64,000 nt of DNA from Lepraria neglecta (Eukaryota; Ascomycota; Lecanoromycetes; Lecanorales; Stereocaulaceae): contig CM065647.1 in the NCBI GenBank assembly GCA_033220425.1, positions 2,728,001-2,792,000 on the forward strand. Reading direction: 5' to 3'. The notes below the pieces were generated by a model. It was not told the origin of the DNA, ran no database searches, and saw only the letters and a program-made list of their open reading frames with translations. Position numbers and translations under genes: made by a program. How positions within the stretch are numbered: position 1 is the first letter of the stretch; the number at the start of each line of letters is the position of its first letter. Positions 19,218-49,984 of this stretch are shown here, one piece after another.

Positions 19218-20217
19218 ATCAGCTTTGGAGTACTTTGAGATTCTGTCACGAGACTCTGGAGGATGTGGCTAGCGTGGCAAAACGAATTGCAAAAGCGGCA
19301 GTGGAATCCGCGCGTGTTTATGATAGTATCGAAAGCTGCTGGGGTGTCTTTGGCTTTTTGCAGCTTACTGCCTTATGCCTGTCGTTACCGAAATGAAAGA
19401 AGGTAGGCTGGGTCTCCCTAATGTCAGCTACATATTTCGTCATTCGTTTGAGGACATTTCTTGGAGAGAGAGAAAAATTGTTGCAGCACAGGTCTCCAAC
19501 GCGCAGTAAACGAGAGTTGTAATATTAGCCCATAGACAACTCAGAAGGATTGCTGTAGATACAATGCTGGTTTCTGTTGGGCAAGGAAATCCGTGTAACC
19601 CACAGCCGCAACTCGTCTAAGGAGTGGTCCCCGTCATATCAAATGCACTCGATGCGTAAAAGATATCTGCCACGATCACTAGTCATATGAGCAGCAAGCA
19701 CTTTTGTCATGTGGTCTCAGGTACGCAAGCTATCGCGGATGGAATCTCCACCCCACAGCTGCGACTCTAGTGCTTTCCATTAGATCACCATCGACAGGTA
19801 GTTGTTGTATAACAGGCAAGCTTCTTTCTTAGCTTCAAAAACCTCCTTCAAAGTTGACAATTGCCAGGTGGAGGCTGTCTATAGTCAAGTGCGATAGCGG
19901 TTGTGGGCAAAATCTATCCAATGTCATTCGTCCGTGCCCTCTTCCAGCGCTTCTGTCGCCAATAACAATGCATTCAGCGTCGACCATCTTCAAAGCGCGG
20001 AAGCGCATTAAGATCAGGAGTAGATGCATGTGGCCGATCCCGCATCTCGGCCACATGCATGAGCTCGGGTGCTTTGCGGGTGAATCTCGAGCATATTGTG
20101 GCTCCGTGTCCATGTAACTCTTTTTCGTCCCCCAATCTCTTCCGACGCAACGAAAACATTACGCGTGATCAAAACATTCGTCCAGAGTGCAAGTGAACAA
20201 GGCAAACGAGGGCTGAA
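19218..20217. promoter_or_regulatory. Upstream region of the copper ATPase gene
   Basis: One kilobase without a supported gene. ORFs on both strands near 19835-20205 overlap a strong palindrome and have no domain. The palindrome at 20024-20060 is listed separately. Confidence 0.4.
20024..20060. promoter_or_regulatory. Inverted repeat in the copper-ATPase promoter
   Basis: ATGCATGTGGCCGA (20024-20037) and its exact reverse complement (20047-20060) flank a 9-base spacer, about 160 bp upstream of the ATPase start codon. The symmetry suits a dimeric regulator or an RNA hairpin in a long leader. No known copper-response consensus is matched with confidence. Confidence 0.55.
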
Positions 20218-23106
20218 ATGACAAACAAGAGTCTCAGCAAGAATATTTGCAGTGATGCCTGCTCTGATCTATCAGGAAGGGTGTCACCCGAAGGCGCTGG
20301 TGCTACAGCGGACGAAGACCTCAAGGACAGCTGCTTCAGCGGAAGATGCCCAAAACAAGGCAGTAGAGTCAAGGTTGACAAATTCGGAGACTCATCTGGA
20401 ATCGACTGCTGCAGACGTCAGCTTCAACAACCAGCTAGGAAAACTTCTGGACTCAAAGTTGATGACTGCTCTGACAGAACCTCTTGCGGTCAAAATTCCT
20501 CGGAGTCAGTCCCCCCGACCAAACACATAGAGGCAGGAACTTGCTCAGAAGCGTCCTGCTGCAATGGCGAAACTCCAATTCGCTCATCTTCCTTTGCGGC
20601 CAACAGCCCAGCACCAGACGCATTCGAGACGACCAAGACCCACACTGCAACGCCAGCTGCAGGAAACATTGTTGATCATATTGACGTTGAAAGGAGATCA
20701 TTCCTTTCCGAACATGTAATTCTGTATATTCAAGGAATGACCTGCTCTGGATGCGAGGGCAAACTCCGCAAACTACTTCAATCGCTTCGGCTAATTTCCA
20801 ACATCAAAACAAGCCTCGTCTTGGCCCAAGCAGAATTCGACTTTCATGGGGTTGACATCGCCAATCTAATCAAGAACATCGAGAGAAAGACCGGCTTCAC
20901 TTGCACGAGAGCTACGCAAGCGGGAGACGTGCTGGATATTATTGTTGGTGGGAATGCCCAAGCACTCGCTACCAAGCAGAATCTGCCCCTTGGGGTTACC
21001 GATCTAGCCGTGCTCGACAGAAACCTTGTCCGCGTCAGCTATGATCCTCGGATCGTTGGCGCCAGAGACTTGCTGTCTAACCCTTTCTTTCCGTCGGCAA
21101 AATTGGCTCCAATCGCGGCTCCATCTACGATCGCTTCAGGTAGGGCTCATGTCCGAGCAACATGTTTAATGACGCTCTTGTCTGTGTTGCTCATCGTCCC
21201 CGTCCTTATCTTGGCATGGGCTCCGCTCCCCAAGCATGATATACTCTATCAAACAGTGTCGCTTGTGCTCGCTACAATCATCCAAGTTGTCATTGCTGGA
21301 CCATTCTATCCCCGCGCCTTCAACGCTCTCGTCTTCTTAGGGACGGTAGAAATGGATCTCCTCGTTGTCCTAAGTACTACCACGGCGTACGCCTATTCGG
21401 TTGTCGCATACGCCTATTTGGTTGCAGGAAGGCCATTGTTGACTGGAGAATTCTTCGAGACTAGCAGCTTACTCGTTACCCTCATTATGGTTGGCCGCTC
21501 GGTCAGTGCATTTGCCCGGCAAAGAGCCGTCGAGTCTATCTCTATTGAGTCATTGCAGACACCGACTGCGCTTCTCGTCGGGAAAGAGTCCGGTCAAGTA
21601 CAAGAGATCGATGCAAGGCTCCTGCAATATCACGACATATTCAGGGTGCTACCCGATATGCCCGTTGTCACTGATGGAGTGGTAACCGCTGGGCAGTCAG
21701 AAGTTGATGAGTCTTTGATCACCGGCGAATCAGTATTAGTGGCCAAAAGTGCTGGAGTGTCTGTGATTGCCGGTTCGATCAACCATTCTGGCACTCTCAC
21801 AGTCCGTCTCACTCGTCTTCCAGGCGAGAATACTATCAATACTATTGGGACAATGGTCGATGAGGCTCAATCAGGTAATTCCCGGACCCAGGGCATTGCC
21901 GATCGCTTTGCTGGCTACTTCGTTCCTTTCATTCTTCTTATTGCCGTTTTAGTGTTCGCCATATGGGCCGCCGTTGGAAAGACCGCTCGTCATCAGAGTG
22001 CAACAGTTGCCTGCATTAACGCTATGACATACGCTATCTCCGCTCTCATCGTCTCGTGTCCCTGTGCCGTTGGTCTGGCAGTGCCAATGGTTGTCCTGAT
22101 AGTAGGGGGTGTTGGAGCAAAAAATGGCCTGATCTTTAAATCTGCCGAGGCAATCGAGAACGCGCGGAATATCTCCCATGTCGTCTTCGACAAGACAGGC
22201 ACGCTCACACAGGGGAAACTTTCTGTCGATTCAGAGGAATATTTTGTTAAAGACTCTGATTCACTGAAGCCAATGATTCTTGGATTGACAATCAATAGCA
22301 AGCATCCCGTATCTTGCGCTATTGCTTCACACTTGAAGCTCCTGGATGTTTTACCTTTACAGGTCGAGGATTTCGTCGTCGTACCTGGCAGTGGGATCGA
22401 AGCCATATGTAACGGAAACTTTGTCCGTGCAGGAAATCTTGACTGGCTAGGCGTCAGTGAATCAACGATGCTTGAAATAGATACTTCACTTGGTCTGACT
22501 CGGTTCTGCGTATCCATCGATGGGGCTGTTGTCGCGCTGTTTGGGCTTAGAGACATACTTCGCCCTGATGCTATCGACGTCGTCAACCTGCTCAAGAAGC
22601 GATCGATTGACATATCAATCGTAAGTGGCGATACTAAAGAGGCTGTTCACTCCGTTGCCAAACAACTTGGTATTCTCGGGAGCCGTGTTCGATTCAGATA
22701 CAGCCCAGGTGACAAACAAGCCTACGTCAAAGAGACACTTGCCCGCAAAAACAGTGTCGTACTGTTCTGCGGAGACGGCACCAACGACGCAGCAGCTCTT
22801 GCACAGGCAAGCATAGGCCTACACATGAACGAAGGCACAGATATTGCCCAGAGCGCCGCGGACGCCGTTCTCATGCGTCCTTCGTTGAGCGGCATCGTTG
22901 TCCTGATTGATCTCTCAAAGGCCTTTTATCGACGTGTTGCTTTCAACTTTGCTTGGGCTTTCACATACAATCTCTTCGCGATCCTGTTGGCTGCTGGCGC
23001 GTTACCTCATGCCCGCATTCCACCGCAGTTCGCAGGGTTGGGGGAGATTGTGAGCGTTCTGCCAGTCATTGCTATAGCAATGCAGTTGAGATGGGTAAAA
23101 TTCTAG
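20218..23106 (+). CDS. P1B-type heavy-metal (copper) transporting ATPase
   Basis: Single-exon gene for 962 residues. The enzyme couples ATP hydrolysis to export of Cu(I) or a similar soft metal across the plasma or vesicle membrane. Visible elements in order: a 150-residue N-terminus with spaced cysteines (11, 15, 39, 44, 64, 65, 84, 90, 109, 114, 115); one heavy-metal-associated domain with MTCSGCEGK (Cys 176 and 179); membrane helices; TGES actuator loop; the metal-binding CPC in helix 6 (residues 614-616); DKTGT with the phosphorylated Asp near 658; SKHPVSCAI with the conserved HP; GDGTNDA hinge; final helices. All catalytic motifs are intact. The CPC motif predicts a monovalent copper or silver ion rather than zinc. 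Confidence 0.94.
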   Translation: MTNKSLSKNICSDACSDLSGRVSPEGAGATADEDLKDSCFSGRCPKQGSRVKVDKFGDSSGIDCCRRQLQQPARKTSGLKVDDCSDRTSCGQNSSESVPPTKHIEAGTCSEASCCNGETPIRSSSFAANSPAPDAFETTKTHTATPAAGNIVDHIDVERRSFLSEHVILYIQGMTCSGCEGKLRKLLQSLRLISNIKTSLVLAQAEFDFHGVDIANLIKNIERKTGFTCTRATQAGDVLDIIVGGNAQALATKQNLPLGVTDLAVLDRNLVRVSYDPRIVGARDLLSNPFFPSAKLAPIAAPSTIASGRAHVRATCLMTLLSVLLIVPVLILAWAPLPKHDILYQTVSLVLATIIQVVIAGPFYPRAFNALVFLGTVEMDLLVVLSTTTAYAYSVVAYAYLVAGRPLLTGEFFETSSLLVTLIMVGRSVSAFARQRAVESISIESLQTPTALLVGKESGQVQEIDARLLQYHDIFRVLPDMPVVTDGVVTAGQSEVDESLITGESVLVAKSAGVSVIAGSINHSGTLTVRLTRLPGENTINTIGTMVDEAQSGNSRTQGIADRFAGYFVPFILLIAVLVFAIWAAVGKTARHQSATVACINAMTYAISALIVSCPCAVGLAVPMVVLIVGGVGAKNGLIFKSAEAIENARNISHVVFDKTGTLTQGKLSVDSEEYFVKDSDSLKPMILGLTINSKHPVSCAIASHLKLLDVLPLQVEDFVVVPGSGIEAICNGNFVRAGNLDWLGVSESTMLEIDTSLGLTRFCVSIDGAVVALFGLRDILRPDAIDVVNLLKKRSIDISIVSGDTKEAVHSVAKQLGILGSRVRFRYSPGDKQAYVKETLARKNSVVLFCGDGTNDAAALAQASIGLHMNEGTDIAQSAADAVLMRPSLSGIVVLIDLSKAFYRRVAFNFAWAFTYNLFAILLAAGALPHARIPPQFAGLGEIVSVLPVIAIAMQLRWVKF

Positions 23107-42826: not shown

Positions 42827-43897
42827 CTAAACAGCAAAAGAGCCCAAGACACCGTAGTCTATCCTAGGACTTTCAATCATCTTGTATGCGTTCTCCCACC
42901 CAAAAGCGTCAAGCCCCGCCAGCTTCCCCTCCCGCTTCTTGTTGGTATTTTCTATGCACAGATCGGAGGCTACTTTGAGGTAGTCTTTGAACTCAGCCCA
43001 GTAGTTGCCAGGACTGGCCATCTCTGTTGGCCCTAGAGATTGCGTGACGTTGAAACCGCCGTTGACTGCATCGGAACAGAAGTTGAACAAGTCCTGGACG
43101 TATTCTTTCTGGGTTTAGACATCTTGAGCGGTGCCGTAGCGGTTGAGATGGCCGCCAATGTAGGTGACGAAGTCGTGTGCAAGGATTTGATAATGCGCTT
43201 CGATCCAGCCGGGTATGTAATCGGACTGGACTAGCTCCGCGAAGGTGCCCAGCTGGGGAAGACGACATCGACTACCATGATGGTTTTGGAGCCAAGGGCG
43301 TAAATGAAGATGTTTCCAGGCTCGTGGTTTGGTCCTTTGTAGGAGAGTTCGAGGGTTTGGTTGCCGACGCAGACTTTGTATTCCTCTTGGAAGATGATGT
43401 TTGGGATTGGTCGTGCGGGATCGAGTGTGGGTATCCCTTCGAGATTCAACAGTGTTTCCACTTGAGCGATGTAATGTGTAATAGTTTCGTTGAAGATGTA
43501 GGCACCACCAACGTGATCGGAGTGGGCCTGGCTATATACGAAGTGCATAACTGGTTGATCTGTAACGCCCTTGATGGCGGCCTGAAGTTGTAGCCGATCG
43601 TTGGGGGCAGTCGACTGCAATAACGCCGGCATCACTGATTAGGGAAATGGATTGGTAGCCGCCGTCGGTGACAAAGTAGGTACCGTTGCCAATATGCTCC
43701 ATGCGATATCTCATCTTAGAGTCGATGGCGGGTCCCAAGGCTTCGGCTGACGGGGCAAGGAAATGGGTTTCGTTGGAGTCTGGTCCATGGCAAACACCCG
43801 CAAGGTCGCGCCTCTGATCTCCATGATGAGGATGAGCACTGCTAGTTATCGTGAGTGCCAGGGCGAGGAACGTGGTCGTAGAACGGTGAAAGAGCAT
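42827..43897 (-). pseudogene. Secreted metallo-beta-lactamase-fold protein, frame-disrupted
   Basis: The start at 43897 gives a signal peptide (LALALTITSSAHPHHG). The MBL-fold text runs nearly full length: GNGTYFVTDGGYQ, SDAGVIAVDC, VMHFVYSQAHSDHVGGAYIF, NHEPGNIFIY, VVDVVFPSWAP, FVTYIGGHLNRYG, to the stop at 42827. Lesions: two missing bases around VDCP/PTIGY/LQAAI (about 43600-43625), one near FPSWAP/FAEL (about 43248), and TAA in AQDV-stop-TQKEYV (about 43120). The usual HxHxDH reads QxHxDH, so one metal ligand is also lost. No intron is needed to explain the layout. Confidence 0.75.
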
Positions 43898-45041
43898 TTT
43901 GAGCCTTGTATTTCTTGTGCGAATTAGATAATGTGATAGGTGATGCGATCTCTGAAGAGCAACGACATGATAGTACTTGCTGTACCTCTAGATATATAGT
44001 AAATTGGCAGTGCCCTGTTGCCTGTCGTTACGAACGCCATGCCTGGAAGCATAGCATGCAAGATCAGATCAGAAAATGCGAGGATCCAATAGCGCCAGAT
44101 GAATGCTTTTGTCATGCTAAGGTCATGATCTGAAATCAGTACAATATCAAGGAGGGAACGGAAGGAGCCGTCTGGCTTGCTGTCAAATGTAGATGTCACT
44201 GAGATTTAGGGCAGGTACAACCCGCTTTTGGCGATACCAAGGATCGCCCCAAGTTGATTTAATAATACCTTCAAACCACTTTACATATCAACATCTCGCT
44301 CTAAAAGTGGCTGAAAACCTGGGGATAGCTGCATATAGTGCTTGGACTTGGACAGTAATTGGCTACTTGGGTGAACGCCACAACAAAAAGTAGGCCTGCC
44401 GGTCCCTAGAAAAGTATCAAGATTGAGTCGCCTCTAGCAGAACTATTTCTTTCTAGCCGCTTTTTGCTAGTCAAACTCATTTCGTTAGATCTTCGCTGCA
44501 TATCATCTATTCAAGCCTTGCCTATGGTAAGCACATGCTTAGTCAAAGAGAGGCTCGTAATGATGGAGGCGGGTTGACCTCGAGCGATCAGGGAGCCAAT
44601 TCTGCTTGAAGCTTGCGTGTTCGAAGTGAGAGATGGTAGATGCTTTAATCTTCGAGAACGAGGCACGTGTTAGTAGCTTGAGTCTGAGGGCTAATGTATG
44701 AAGGAATCGTGGTTTCACCACCTTGCCAATGTAGGAAGGCGGCGAAATTCTTGAGCAAGGCCCTAAAGCATCTATTTATGAATAGCGTGGTCAAGAACCC
44801 ATCTAGCTAAGCCCTATGAGCGGAGCTAGTAGGCTCATTAGACGGAAAAACAAAATTTTCCTGACCTTGGCTCCTGATGAACTGCGTGATACTCAAAGTT
44901 CTGGCACCGCGAATGATATAGACTAGGACGGTGCTTTTTGCATCACGACGGGCAATAAAGAGTCGCCCCAAGCGTGACCTACGTTCTTGTGCCGATCACG
45001 AGCTCATGGTCTAGCCCAAGGTCCTGAAGCGAATTCACATC
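43898..45041. other. Intergenic, no supported gene
   Basis: About 1.1 kb with short ORFs only. No repeat or regulatory motif identified with confidence. Confidence 0.4.
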
Positions 45042-46129: not shown

Positions 46130-46906
46130 CTATGACTCTTCAACTTCGCGGATAACCTTCTCGAAGTTCTCAACGTTGTGAGCGAATCGTCCAAGGAATA
46201 ATCCATCGAGCCCTGCTTTCAATGTCTGCCACGTGCCCGGCTTTGCGCTGCCACCGTAAAGCATCCTAATCTCCGTCTTTCCCTCAACCGTATCAACGAG
46301 ACTCTTCAAGCTCTTGACGACGGCCAGGACGTGATCTGCTGATGCAGGCTCCTGCGCTCCAATTGCCCATGCAGGCTCGTAGGCAAAGATGATGGGTGCA
46401 TCCCCTGGCACGGCTCGTAGTACCTCCATGATCTGAGGCGAACACTCTCTGATGGCAAGCCCAACCCCTTCTGACATGATGTTGCTCTTTGCCTTCTCCC
46501 CAATGCACACTAAAGGTATCATCCCGTTCCGCACAACTGCTTTTGCCTTCTTCGCAATAACGTCATCCGCCTCGTTGATAGGTGCTCTTCTTCGTTCAGC
46601 ATGGCCTAGGCACACCATTGAGCAGCCGATCTGCTTCAACATCAAAGGCGAGACTTCCCCCGTGTAGGCGCCGCTGTCTTCGGTATGGCAATTCTGGGCT
46701 CCGAGGAGGACTTGTGGTGTAGCTTGCAGTAGTGTGTGGGCGGCACCTAGGCATGGGTATGATGGTATGATGAAGATACCGCAGGAAGAGTCGGGGGGTG
46801 GAGCGATCTTGGAGACGGAGGAGATGTAGGCTGTGGTGGTGGGTAAGTCGAAGTACATCTTGGTGTTGACACCGACGAGACTTTTGGGTAGAGTTGGCGC
46901 CGCCAT
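46130..46906 (-). CDS. Triosephosphate-isomerase-like sugar-phosphate isomerase
   Basis: Intronless, 258 residues from the Met at 46906 (MAAPTLPKS); the frame is open upstream without family text. All catalytic elements of the TIM barrel are present: Asn14 and Lys16 in VGVNTKMYFD, His102 in CLGHAERR, Glu177 in FAYEPAWAIG, and the phosphate loop LYGGSAKPG. The usual GNWKMN start is changed to GVNTKMY and the loop 6 hinge reads AIGAQEP. Such divergent copies, next to an RpiB gene, are found in bacterial erythritol operons, where the TIM-like enzyme interconverts L-erythrulose 1-phosphate and D-erythrulose 4-phosphate. I infer a tetrulose-phosphate or similar substrate rather than glycolysis. 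Confidence 0.87.
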   Translation of the reverse strand: MAAPTLPKSLVGVNTKMYFDLPTTTAYISSVSKIAPPPDSSCGIFIIPSYPCLGAAHTLLQATPQVLLGAQNCHTEDSGAYTGEVSPLMLKQIGCSMVCLGHAERRRAPINEADDVIAKKAKAVVRNGMIPLVCIGEKAKSNIMSEGVGLAIRECSPQIMEVLRAVPGDAPIIFAYEPAWAIGAQEPASADHVLAVVKSLKSLVDTVEGKTEIRMLYGGSAKPGTWQTLKAGLDGLFLGRFAHNVENFEKVIREVEES

Positions 46907-47234
46907 TGCTGTCTGCTGAAGACTCTCTGAGCGGTGTTGCTGATAAATTGGTGGGAAGACGGAGAGGCAGAGAGTTGGAAGGTAGATTTCTACGGCGAGT
47001 TGATTCGGGGTAGTTGACTCCGCAAGGATCCATAGCCCCCACGAACGCTGCAGCGCCCAGGCCATTTCTACGTCTACCATGCATGTTTAGCAGTCTAATG
47101 TCTCAATGTGGTAGTCACTGCTACAGATATGTACTTAAAGGGCCATGTCATGGCCTAGCTCCTCGAACAGTTGAAGAAACATCCATTGTAGCTTTTACCA
47201 GCCTCCAGCGCACCCCTTTCAGAGTCGAGACCCC

Positions 47235-47729
47235 TTAAGAGCTGACTTTGCCATCCGCATGCTTGGCTTCATAGTCACTGATGACCTGCACCTTCGCAGC
47301 GCTTCCACTCTCCGGATCGAACGTGTAGCCCAACCACTCTTTCGCCAATCTCCTCGCCAACTCGATTCCCACCACTCTTTGTCCCATGCAGAGTACCTGC
47401 GCATTGTTACTCAAAACAGCCCTTTCCACGCTGAAACTGTCATGTGCCGTCACTGCTCTTATGCCAGGAACCTTGTTCGCGCTGATGGCCACCCCGAGGC
47501 CCGTTCCACAGATCAAAAGGGCGCGGTCTGCTTCACCAGAGAGGATGAGTTTCGAGGCATCGACTGCTACGTGTGGGTAGACGGTTTTGTCTTCGTTGTG
47601 AATGACGCCTACGTCAATGACTTTTGCGACTCGTGGGTCTTTCTCGAGGTCGGCTTTGATGGTGTCTTTGTAGGAGAAGCCGGCATCATCGCTGCCGACT
47701 ACGATGCGAAGGCCTTGCTGTTGTGCCAT
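47235..47729 (-). CDS. RpiB/LacAB-family sugar-phosphate isomerase
   Basis: Intronless, 164 residues from the Met at 47729 ([10 protein letters not shown]). Family marks: [10 protein letters not shown] at the start, [14 protein letters not shown] with Cys74 as catalytic base, and [12 protein letters not shown] carrying the conserved His-Asp pair. RpiB enzymes interconvert aldose and ketose phosphates (ribose 5-P, allose 6-P, or D-erythrulose 4-P to D-erythrose 4-P). It lies 328 bp upstream of the TIM-like gene on the same strand, suggesting linked function. In fungi the housekeeping ribose-5-phosphate isomerase is of the unrelated RpiA type, so this is an accessory enzyme. Confidence 0.88.
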
Positions 47730-48389: not shown

Positions 48390-49984
48390 ATGGTGTACCT
48401 CGGCGTCAGTAAGGGATGTAGAACCTGCCGGAATCGCAAGGTCAAGGTAGGTGCCTTTTGAAATTTACATTAGCAAGCAACTCATCATGGTCTGACACTT
48501 CTCGTCAGTGCGACCAGGGGAAACCAGAATGTCAGCGATGCAAGAAGTCAAAACGTCCTTGTCTTGGGTACGAGGCAATCGCCTTTCGCGATCAGAGTAA
48601 ACTCGTGGAGCAGAAGGCCTGAAATGGTCGTGAGAGATGCACAGCCCAACCAATCCTGATAAGGTCCAGAGATGACGACGTGGCTGTTGCGGAGACGCCA
48701 GCTCCTATGCCATGCCTGCCACAGTCTGCTGAGGAAGATTCTCTGTGTTTCTTCATGAACCATCTTGTCATATATCAGCGGCACAAAGCAACCGCAGGAG
48801 GCCCCGTGGAGTTTCTCCCTCGATTGTATGCCAGTGCCCCCGCCAGATCTGCCTTGTCAGCGGCAACCCTGGCCGTCGGCATGGGTCGTGCTGCTTGGTA
48901 TCCCGGGCGTTCACATTACAGATTGACTTCTATCGCCAAATACGCTGAAGCAATAGGATTGGTCAATGAAGCTATTCAGGATGGGGAAGTATCGAAGTCT
49001 GATCACGTTCTTCAAGCAGTACTCATGCTTGGGTTGTGGCAGGTGAGCACTGAGGCCTTATCATTTCTATTCTAGCATGCTAAGAAACAAGGAACTAGGG
49101 TGTTAGAGCAGTCAAGGTCACCAGCGCCGAGCATGACGCACACATCAAGGGAGCCTCTGCGTTACTCAGAAATCGCGGGGTCGAGTCGTTTGGGTCTGAA
49201 ACATCTTCTAAACTCTTCCTTGCTGTTCGAGCACAGCTAGTGAGCAATTCTATCGAGTATGAAGTATTCCTTTGTTGAAACAGAGCAGGTTCAAAACTGC
49301 ATTAGGGGTGAGGACTGTACACCATTAGTTGAACTCATGAGTTTCACCGGAGACATTCATCATCGTGGCAATAATCGTCTCAAATTTGGTGACCGGCTCG
49401 CCATGCTGACTTCGATCATACCCAGCCTTGTATCGAGAGCAAAAACTCTTCGTTCAACTCCCAAGACCGCGACAAAATACCAAAAGACACTCAGGCTCAT
49501 GCAGGACGCGAAAGGAGACGACTTGTTGTTCACAAATCTATGGATCGCTGAGGCCCCAGCGGAGTTCCATTACACTTCAGTGGCCTTGTATGGGAGCAAA
49601 GATTATGCGAACAATGTCTATCCACGGACTCTGGACAGCTATCATGATGTATTCGTGGCTAATGAATGGAACCTGTGGAGGACATCTCGGATACATATAC
49701 TGACTGTCATAAAGCAATGTGCGGTCATGTGTGAAGATGTTCCCGAAGTTTTTGAGGTGGATGCTACAATTCAACAGCTTGTTGATGATGTATGCTCAAG
49801 CGTCCCGTTCCAACTAGGATATGAGAAGAGTACCGCTCAGAAGCAGCCCGCCTACCCACATGTCGCGGGATGTGCAACATGGTTAGAGGCTTTTGGTCTT
49901 CCATGTACTCTTGGGGGCTTTCTCCTCATACAGCCTTTAGGGATTGCCGTCAAAGTCGATTGTATTCCGGAGACTCAAAGATAG
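48390..49984 (+). pseudogene. Zn2Cys6 transcription factor gene with nonsense codon
   Basis: Exons 48390-48446, 48509-49042, 49099-49239 and 49289-49984 splice in phase 0. The binuclear cluster is split by intron 1 as usual for the family: KGCRTCRNRKVK then CDQGKPECQRCKKSKRPC. A TGA at 48620-48622 (VEQKA-stop-NGRERC) interrupts the frame just after the cluster, where CGA would fit. Beyond it the regulatory domain is open: CFFMNHLVIYQ, RAAWYPGRSHYRL, KGASALLRNRG, LWIAEAPAEFHY. The TAG at 49982 may be a second nonsense since WMRAYLAILNRN follows in frame. It faces the RpiB-TIM pair and could once have controlled it. Confidence 0.72.

Follow-up and report, generated by a model that had tools for sequence, protein, structure and literature searches.

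Two adjoining genes of the fungus Lepraria neglecta, here called P0002 and P0001, probably encode a DerI (EryI)-type and a LerI (EryH)-type isomerase, respectively, for tetrulose phosphates that would probably derive from erythritol or L-threitol, as judged from family placement, signature residues and gene context. The genes lie in the window, which is the whole stretch of 64,000 nucleotides that was analysed, and they are given with its other features in Table 1. An earlier note on this DNA described them as intact, intronless and co-directional, 328 bp apart and with complete active sites. The ORFs confirm this arrangement, and the catalytic residues are kept in both proteins (K16, H102 and E177 in P0001; C74 and H96 in P0002).

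Table 1 Features of the window
Feature	Position	Strand	Details
RpiB-like gene P0002	47729-47235	minus	164 aa; uninterrupted ORF; PF02502 LacAB_rpiB, E 2.4e-43
TIM-like gene P0001	46906-46130	minus	258 aa; uninterrupted ORF; PF00121 TIM, E 4.5e-55
Spacer between the two co-directional genes	46907-47234		328 bp, from the stop of one gene to the start of the next
Alternative P0001 start	47080		Upstream in-frame ATG, giving 316 aa
Zn2Cys6 regulator gene or remnant	48390-49984	plus	Start approximate; end is that of the last ORF piece; zinc-cluster piece PF00172, E 7.2e-10
PCA1-like heavy-metal P-type ATPase gene	20197-23106		Pfam match
Apparent cytochrome P450	23799-25515		Split over several frames, after the P-type ATPase gene (by eye)
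Gene split into two overlapping frames by an intron or frameshift	43231-43987	minus	One frame matches the metallo-beta-lactamase fold

The statement that neither gene is of the usual housekeeping type also holds. When the 42.0-Mb genome (11 contigs) was searched for these families in six frames, there was one other TIM gene, on contig C8 in two exon pieces, and one RpiA match, on contig C3, and no second RpiB besides P0002. Because glycolytic TIM and RpiA are found elsewhere, P0001 and P0002 look additional to the housekeeping set, and since the genome has RpiA, ribose phosphate is not necessarily the task of P0002. The sole RpiB and the sole non-glycolytic TIM found are thus direct neighbours, with a chance of about 2 in 13,000 (for an assumed, uncounted total of about 13,000 genes), and their adjacency is not chance-like. 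A polyol kinase or dehydrogenase close to the pair, for which the earlier note had suggested looking, was not recognised in the window (85 ORFs of at least 120 aa inspected by eye and ten stretches scanned against Pfam, by which short exons could be missed), and the single Dak1 match of the genome lies on contig C8, away from the pair.

Among the 60 of 185 PDB sequence matches listed for P0001, the best is 3s6d (216 bits), a "putative triosephosphate isomerase" that we take to come from C. immitis, followed by 11ef (133 bits), which its depositors named L-erythrulose-1-phosphate isomerase and which ranks above the remaining TIM entries. P0001 is 52% identical to a Kineococcus protein, 50% to 3s6d, 40% to 11ef over the aligned part and 30% to the fungus's own glycolytic TIM with its pieces joined. 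A set of 99 TIM rows was drawn from tblastn matches with ORFs of 200-300 aa, minus duplicate loci and identical proteins, and a more careful tree was built from 64 of these, 34 having been thinned and one, L139, dropped for its long branch. In the 64-row tree P0001 groups with 3s6d and with TIMs from actinobacterial operons (support 100/99), and this clade joins 11ef and the RpiB-adjoining TIMs of Rhizobium and Roseibium (100/99), apart from glycolytic TIM; the quick 99-row tree also separates P0001 from glycolytic TIM. Constraining P0001 to group with the glycolytic rows makes the tree worse by 46.9 log units and is rejected (p-AU 0.000663), so the grouping with ordinary glycolytic TIM that the earlier note had held against its own proposal does not occur, and P0001 falls with the EryH/LerI-type enzymes instead.

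Arg240 of P0001 aligns with the second of the Gly residues in the late phosphate loop of TIM. Arg occupies this site in all 66 LerI-type rows, P0001 included (14/14 on the EryH side, 5/5 and 47/47 in the other groups, the 47 including P0001 and 3s6d), and Gly in 32/32 glycolytic rows, the row groups having been drawn by the author from the trees with L139, one of the 99 rows, left out. By tree, AU test and residue 240, P0001 therefore does not group with glycolytic triosephosphate isomerase. Against the LerI-type assignment, P0001 scores too low to pass any of the nine NCBIfam TIM models listed, and its Asn14 is TIM-like, at a site that is Ser in 3s6d and in most of the group (45 of 47 rows). 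The group also has fixed residues of its own, Ala103 (47/47), Ala221 (47/47) and Phe241 (46/47), at which the EryH side differs, so that the substrate of P0001 could differ from that of EryH.

The nearest solved structures to P0002 are 3qd5 and 3sdw of C. immitis, at 69% identity. A scan of genome contigs confirmed at least 536 relatives, and among the best 80 of these, which were kept, identity to actinobacterial proteins reaches 78%, above the C. immitis value, and 79/80 are Actinobacteria by title; the 80 loci do not equal 80 genomes, as at least two genomes contribute two loci each. One of the loci, L062, has Vibrio cholerae strain 35D as its contig title. Its DAK, TIM and RpiB genes form an Arthrobacter-like set, and it groups with an Arthrobacter row; that assembly is probably misnamed or contaminated.

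P0002 carries the signature C74, Arg103 and Ser107. A 104-row RpiB set was aligned (ORFs of 100-220 aa without duplicates; the bootstrap of its tree had not settled), in which Arg103 together with Ser107 is present in 103 rows, the exception being the single classic RpiB of the set. Among the 103 are 5ifz and the RpiBs that adjoin EryH-side TIMs in Rhizobium and Roseibium. Classic RpiB was represented by a small control set of three sequences, besides PMC3212906, and alignments place Leu and His at the Arg103 and Ser107 sites in the E. coli and T. maritima enzymes. P0002 thus lacks the ring-opening His and the Leu or Met of pentose-phosphate RpiB, having Ser107 and Arg103 instead. The available part of the C. 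immitis RpiB paper (PMC3212906, 2011), which names 3qd5, describes the same departure, with Ser109 in place of the ring-opening His and Arg105 where others have Leu or Met; its authors noted that RpiA could cover ribose phosphate, suspected shorter-chain substrates and left the substrate open. The present assignment offers a candidate answer to their question of what this odd fungal RpiB acts on. P0002 passes the NCBIfam model TIGR02133 RPI_actino, named ribose-5-phosphate isomerase, with 199.4 bits vs 168.2, and misses the rhizobial DerI model with 154.7 bits vs a cut-off of 240, a model that two actinobacterial proteins also fail (150.7 and 135) and that a Rhizobium protein passes (258.8).

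The bacterial relatives of the pair lie mainly in dihydroxyacetone kinase (DAK) operons. Within the fetched flanks of the best 80 of at least 536 P0002 relatives, some of them cut by contig ends, a DAK match is present in 73/80 loci and a TIM match in 36/80. The order is RpiB then TIM on the same strand in 29 of the 36 TIM-bearing loci, which is the order of the fungal pair, and reversed in the other 7. An annotated Arthrobacter plasmid has, in a row, transporter genes, DAK, RpiB, TIM, a DeoR regulator and an alcohol dehydrogenase. TIM also adjoins RpiB on a Roseibium plasmid, in a region resembling an erythritol locus, while an Erwinia plasmid departs from the pattern, with DAK and TIM adjacent and RpiB about 3.5 kb off on the opposite strand. 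The TIM-like gene occurs, at 44-51% identity, in 11 of the 12 genomes from the family to which the Kineococcus genome belongs. RpiB precedes TIM in every one of the 12 loci fetched, two of which come from a single genome, and the matched parts are 67-130 bases apart. A draw of 396 genomes from the phylum contained no better match than that of Kineococcus, and among 60 Mycolicibacterium genomes only one match exceeded 110 bits, on a 13-kb stretch that showed no RpiB match. Other phyla were sampled through plasmids only, so that the link to Actinobacteria has been tested more thoroughly with P0002 than with P0001. A phage collection gave 28 matching records, of which the five rows listed are TIMs with 30-32% identity. 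At loci L148, L174 and L175-L178 a 3HCDH-type dehydrogenase gene was seen, with a xylose-isomerase-like TIM-barrel gene as well at some of them (by Pfam at two loci each, the rest by eye).

According to the available text of PMC10733421, LerI interconverts L-erythrulose 1-phosphate and D-erythrulose 4-phosphate, DerI interconverts D-erythrulose 4-phosphate and D-erythrose 4-phosphate, and E. coli delta-tktAB grows on L-threitol and erythritol with LerI, DerI, a kinase and a dehydrogenase. For the fungal enzymes we infer the corresponding substrates: P0001 would shift the carbonyl group within L-erythrulose 1-phosphate, yielding D-erythrulose 4-phosphate, and P0002 would convert the latter to D-erythrose 4-phosphate. 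The L-erythrulose 1-phosphate would most likely come from erythritol or L-threitol by way of a polyol dehydrogenase and a dihydroxyacetone kinase, and the kinase step would fall to the genome's single DAK on contig C8, which is of the ordinary glycerone-kinase type (its Dak1 half gives 453 bits with TIGR02361 vs 245 with the operon-type NF011049). The suggestion of a eukaryotic version of the EryH/EryI or LerI/DerI module is supported by sequence and context, that is, by the tree, Arg240, Arg103/Ser107 and the bacterial operons. The fungal pair has in common with those systems the enzyme families, the gene adjacency, Arg240 and the Arg/Ser signature in the relatives compared, among which the characterised mycobacterial LerI and DerI proteins were not identified. 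On the EryH/EryI side, P0002 shares 42-51% identity with the RpiBs of Rhizobium, Roseibium and 5ifz, and P0001 belongs to a neighbouring group outside the EryH branch.

A supply of L-erythrulose 1-phosphate from apionate was also considered. This route depends on two enzymes, a RuBisCO-like decarboxylase and a kinase for four-carbon acid sugars, and it was set aside because the PF00016 and PF07005 families gave no match in the genome (controls positive in 5 and 3 of 14). Genes with these two names adjoin the Rhizobium TIM-RpiB pair.

Among other explanations, the one that survives best, though an unlikely one, is that the LerI/DerI module salvages tetrulose phosphates formed as by-products, either by dihydroxyacetone kinase acting on erythrulose or by an aldolase joining formaldehyde and dihydroxyacetone phosphate, and does not serve growth on polyols. 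It would fit the absence of a recognised dedicated kinase or dehydrogenase near the pair in the window and the glycerone-kinase type of the sole DAK match. Pathway genes are often scattered in fungi, however, so that the missing cluster is weak evidence for salvage, and the bacterial pairs are associated with DAK operons. Engineered E. coli does channel aldolase-made erythrulose 1-phosphate through LerI and DerI to D-erythrose 4-phosphate (PMC10733421, available text), which is consistent with salvage. A related idea, that two adjacent genes of an actinobacterial operon were captured in a single piece and serve, instead of growth on polyols, an erythrulose-monophosphate type of one-carbon assimilation in which an aldolase joins formaldehyde and dihydroxyacetone phosphate and the product enters the pentose phosphate pathway, is highly improbable; if true, the aldolase-fed pair would be a natural route of this kind in a eukaryote.

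It is also rather improbable that the substrate of the P0001/P0002 group is some other short sugar phosphate, either a different tetrulose isomer or a sugar of the branched or deoxy kind, supplied in bacteria by the DAK-type kinase. The fixed Ala103, Ala221 and Phe241 that set the fungal and actinobacterial TIM group apart from the EryH side would agree with such a substrate, as would the 3HCDH-type and xylose-isomerase-like genes of some bacterial loci, but Arg240 is common to both TIM groups and the same type of RpiB adjoins EryH-side TIMs (placed by tree) in Arthrobacter loci. That the genes are extra copies of the housekeeping triosephosphate and ribose-5-phosphate isomerases, as their Pfam names, kept catalytic residues and the TIM-like Asn14 might suggest, is very unlikely given the P0001 tree and AU test, Arg240, Ser107 and Arg103 of P0002 and the separate housekeeping set.

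The LerI/DerI-type reading brings the pair close to a described fungal system. In Yarrowia lipolytica, the available part of PMC5992420 (Table 2) gives the RpiB-like EYI1 (YALI0F01628g) as 48% identical to EryI and the TIM-like YALI0F01584g, by elimination EYI2, as 37% identical to EryH, and reports that deletion of EYI1 impairs erythritol use. The pair lies there in an erythritol cluster with the kinase EYK1, the dehydrogenase EYD1 and the regulator EUF1 (PMC5992420, PMC10935855 and PMC7761004, available text). Going by this published description, TIM-like and RpiB-like families are likewise found in one region of a fungal genome, but the Yarrowia cluster includes a kinase and a dehydrogenase, neither of which was recognised beside the L. 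neglecta pair, the DAK being on C8. Proteins similar to those of Yarrowia were found by BLAST in Galactomyces, Rhodotorula and Puccinia, according to the available text of PMC10935855. A eukaryotic tetrulose-phosphate pair is thus not new, because the Yarrowia pair is already published. The present analysis adds a further fungus in which the pair is detached from such a cluster, shows the kinship of this pair with actinobacterial proteins and its operon-like order, and provides residue markers that link P0001, P0002 and their C. immitis counterparts to tetrulose phosphates. A literature search, with subscription journals mostly outside its reach, found no report of fungal TIM and RpiB pairs beyond Yarrowia or of a link to actinobacterial operons.

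The closest relatives found are the actinobacterial DAK-RpiB-TIM operons (Kineococcus, Curtobacterium and others), to which P0002 is up to 78% and P0001 52% identical. Their order is mostly RpiB then TIM, with 15 to about 150 bases between the matched parts and a DAK gene, whereas the fungal genes are 328 bp apart and have no DAK beside them. The C. immitis proteins (3qd5/3sdw 69% identical to P0002, 3s6d 50% to P0001) have the same signature residues. The lack of introns, the top identity to Actinobacteria and the kept gene order speak for transfer of two operon genes into fungi, the probable source being an actinobacterial DAK-RpiB-TIM operon whose kinase gene did not come along. This suggests that two adjoining operon genes reached fungi from Actinobacteria with their order preserved, a direction that we infer and grade as probable because the tree tests leave it unfixed.

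A 59-row RpiB tree, in which 47 rows were thinned and two classic sequences added, places P0002 and the C. immitis RpiB inside actinobacterial rows (99/100 for the 50-row set). The fungal pairs are not sisters in the trees, as P0001 branches before the C. immitis protein and the C. immitis RpiB joins a Nocardioides row (90/88). Other arrangements are nevertheless compatible with the data: a single clade of fungal RpiBs (p-AU 0.666, with the higher likelihood), a single clade of fungal TIM-like proteins (p-AU 0.203), P0001 with the Kineococcus rows (p-AU 0.332, or 0.367 with C. immitis added) and P0002 outside all other DerI-type rows (p-AU 0.337). Transfer of further operon genes is unsupported. 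The xylose-isomerase-like operon partner gave no match in the genome, in a search made without a positive control, and the 3HCDH-type partner gave two, at 33% and 32%, which could be ordinary 3-hydroxyacyl-CoA dehydrogenases.

The assignments also bear on annotation. "TIM" and "RpiB" annotations of fungal proteins of the P0001 and P0002 types are probably wrong, and Arg240 and Arg103/Ser107 provide simple search markers for them. Four RpiBs that adjoin TIM-like genes were scored with RPI_actino. Three of them (P0002, L175 and L148) pass it, the fourth, the Rhizobium protein of L142, passes the DerI model instead, and many TIGR02133 members may be DerI. The structure 5ifz, filed as a ribose 5-phosphate isomerase, has the Arg/Ser signature and groups with the Roseibium and Rhizobium RpiBs located near EryH-side TIMs (compare L146, 6001-7237), and may be an EryI. 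NCBIfam NF000722, named triose-phosphate isomerase and with a cut-off of 293, was passed by three tested EryH-like proteins of DAK/erythritol-type loci (351-419 bits), and three proteins of the fungal-Kineococcus group fell short of it (183-203 bits); this model may label tetrulose-phosphate isomerases as TIM.

Upstream of the pair, and head-to-head with it, is the Zn2Cys6 gene of Table 1, in which an in-frame TGA was seen by eye soon after the zinc cluster. The earlier note had reported a damaged Zn2Cys6 regulator facing the pair; the divergent gene is indeed present, and its damage is plausible only, as the TGA could reflect an unrecognised intron. Its link to the pair is unproved. A match to the fungal-rhodopsin domain was also obtained within the window by Pfam.
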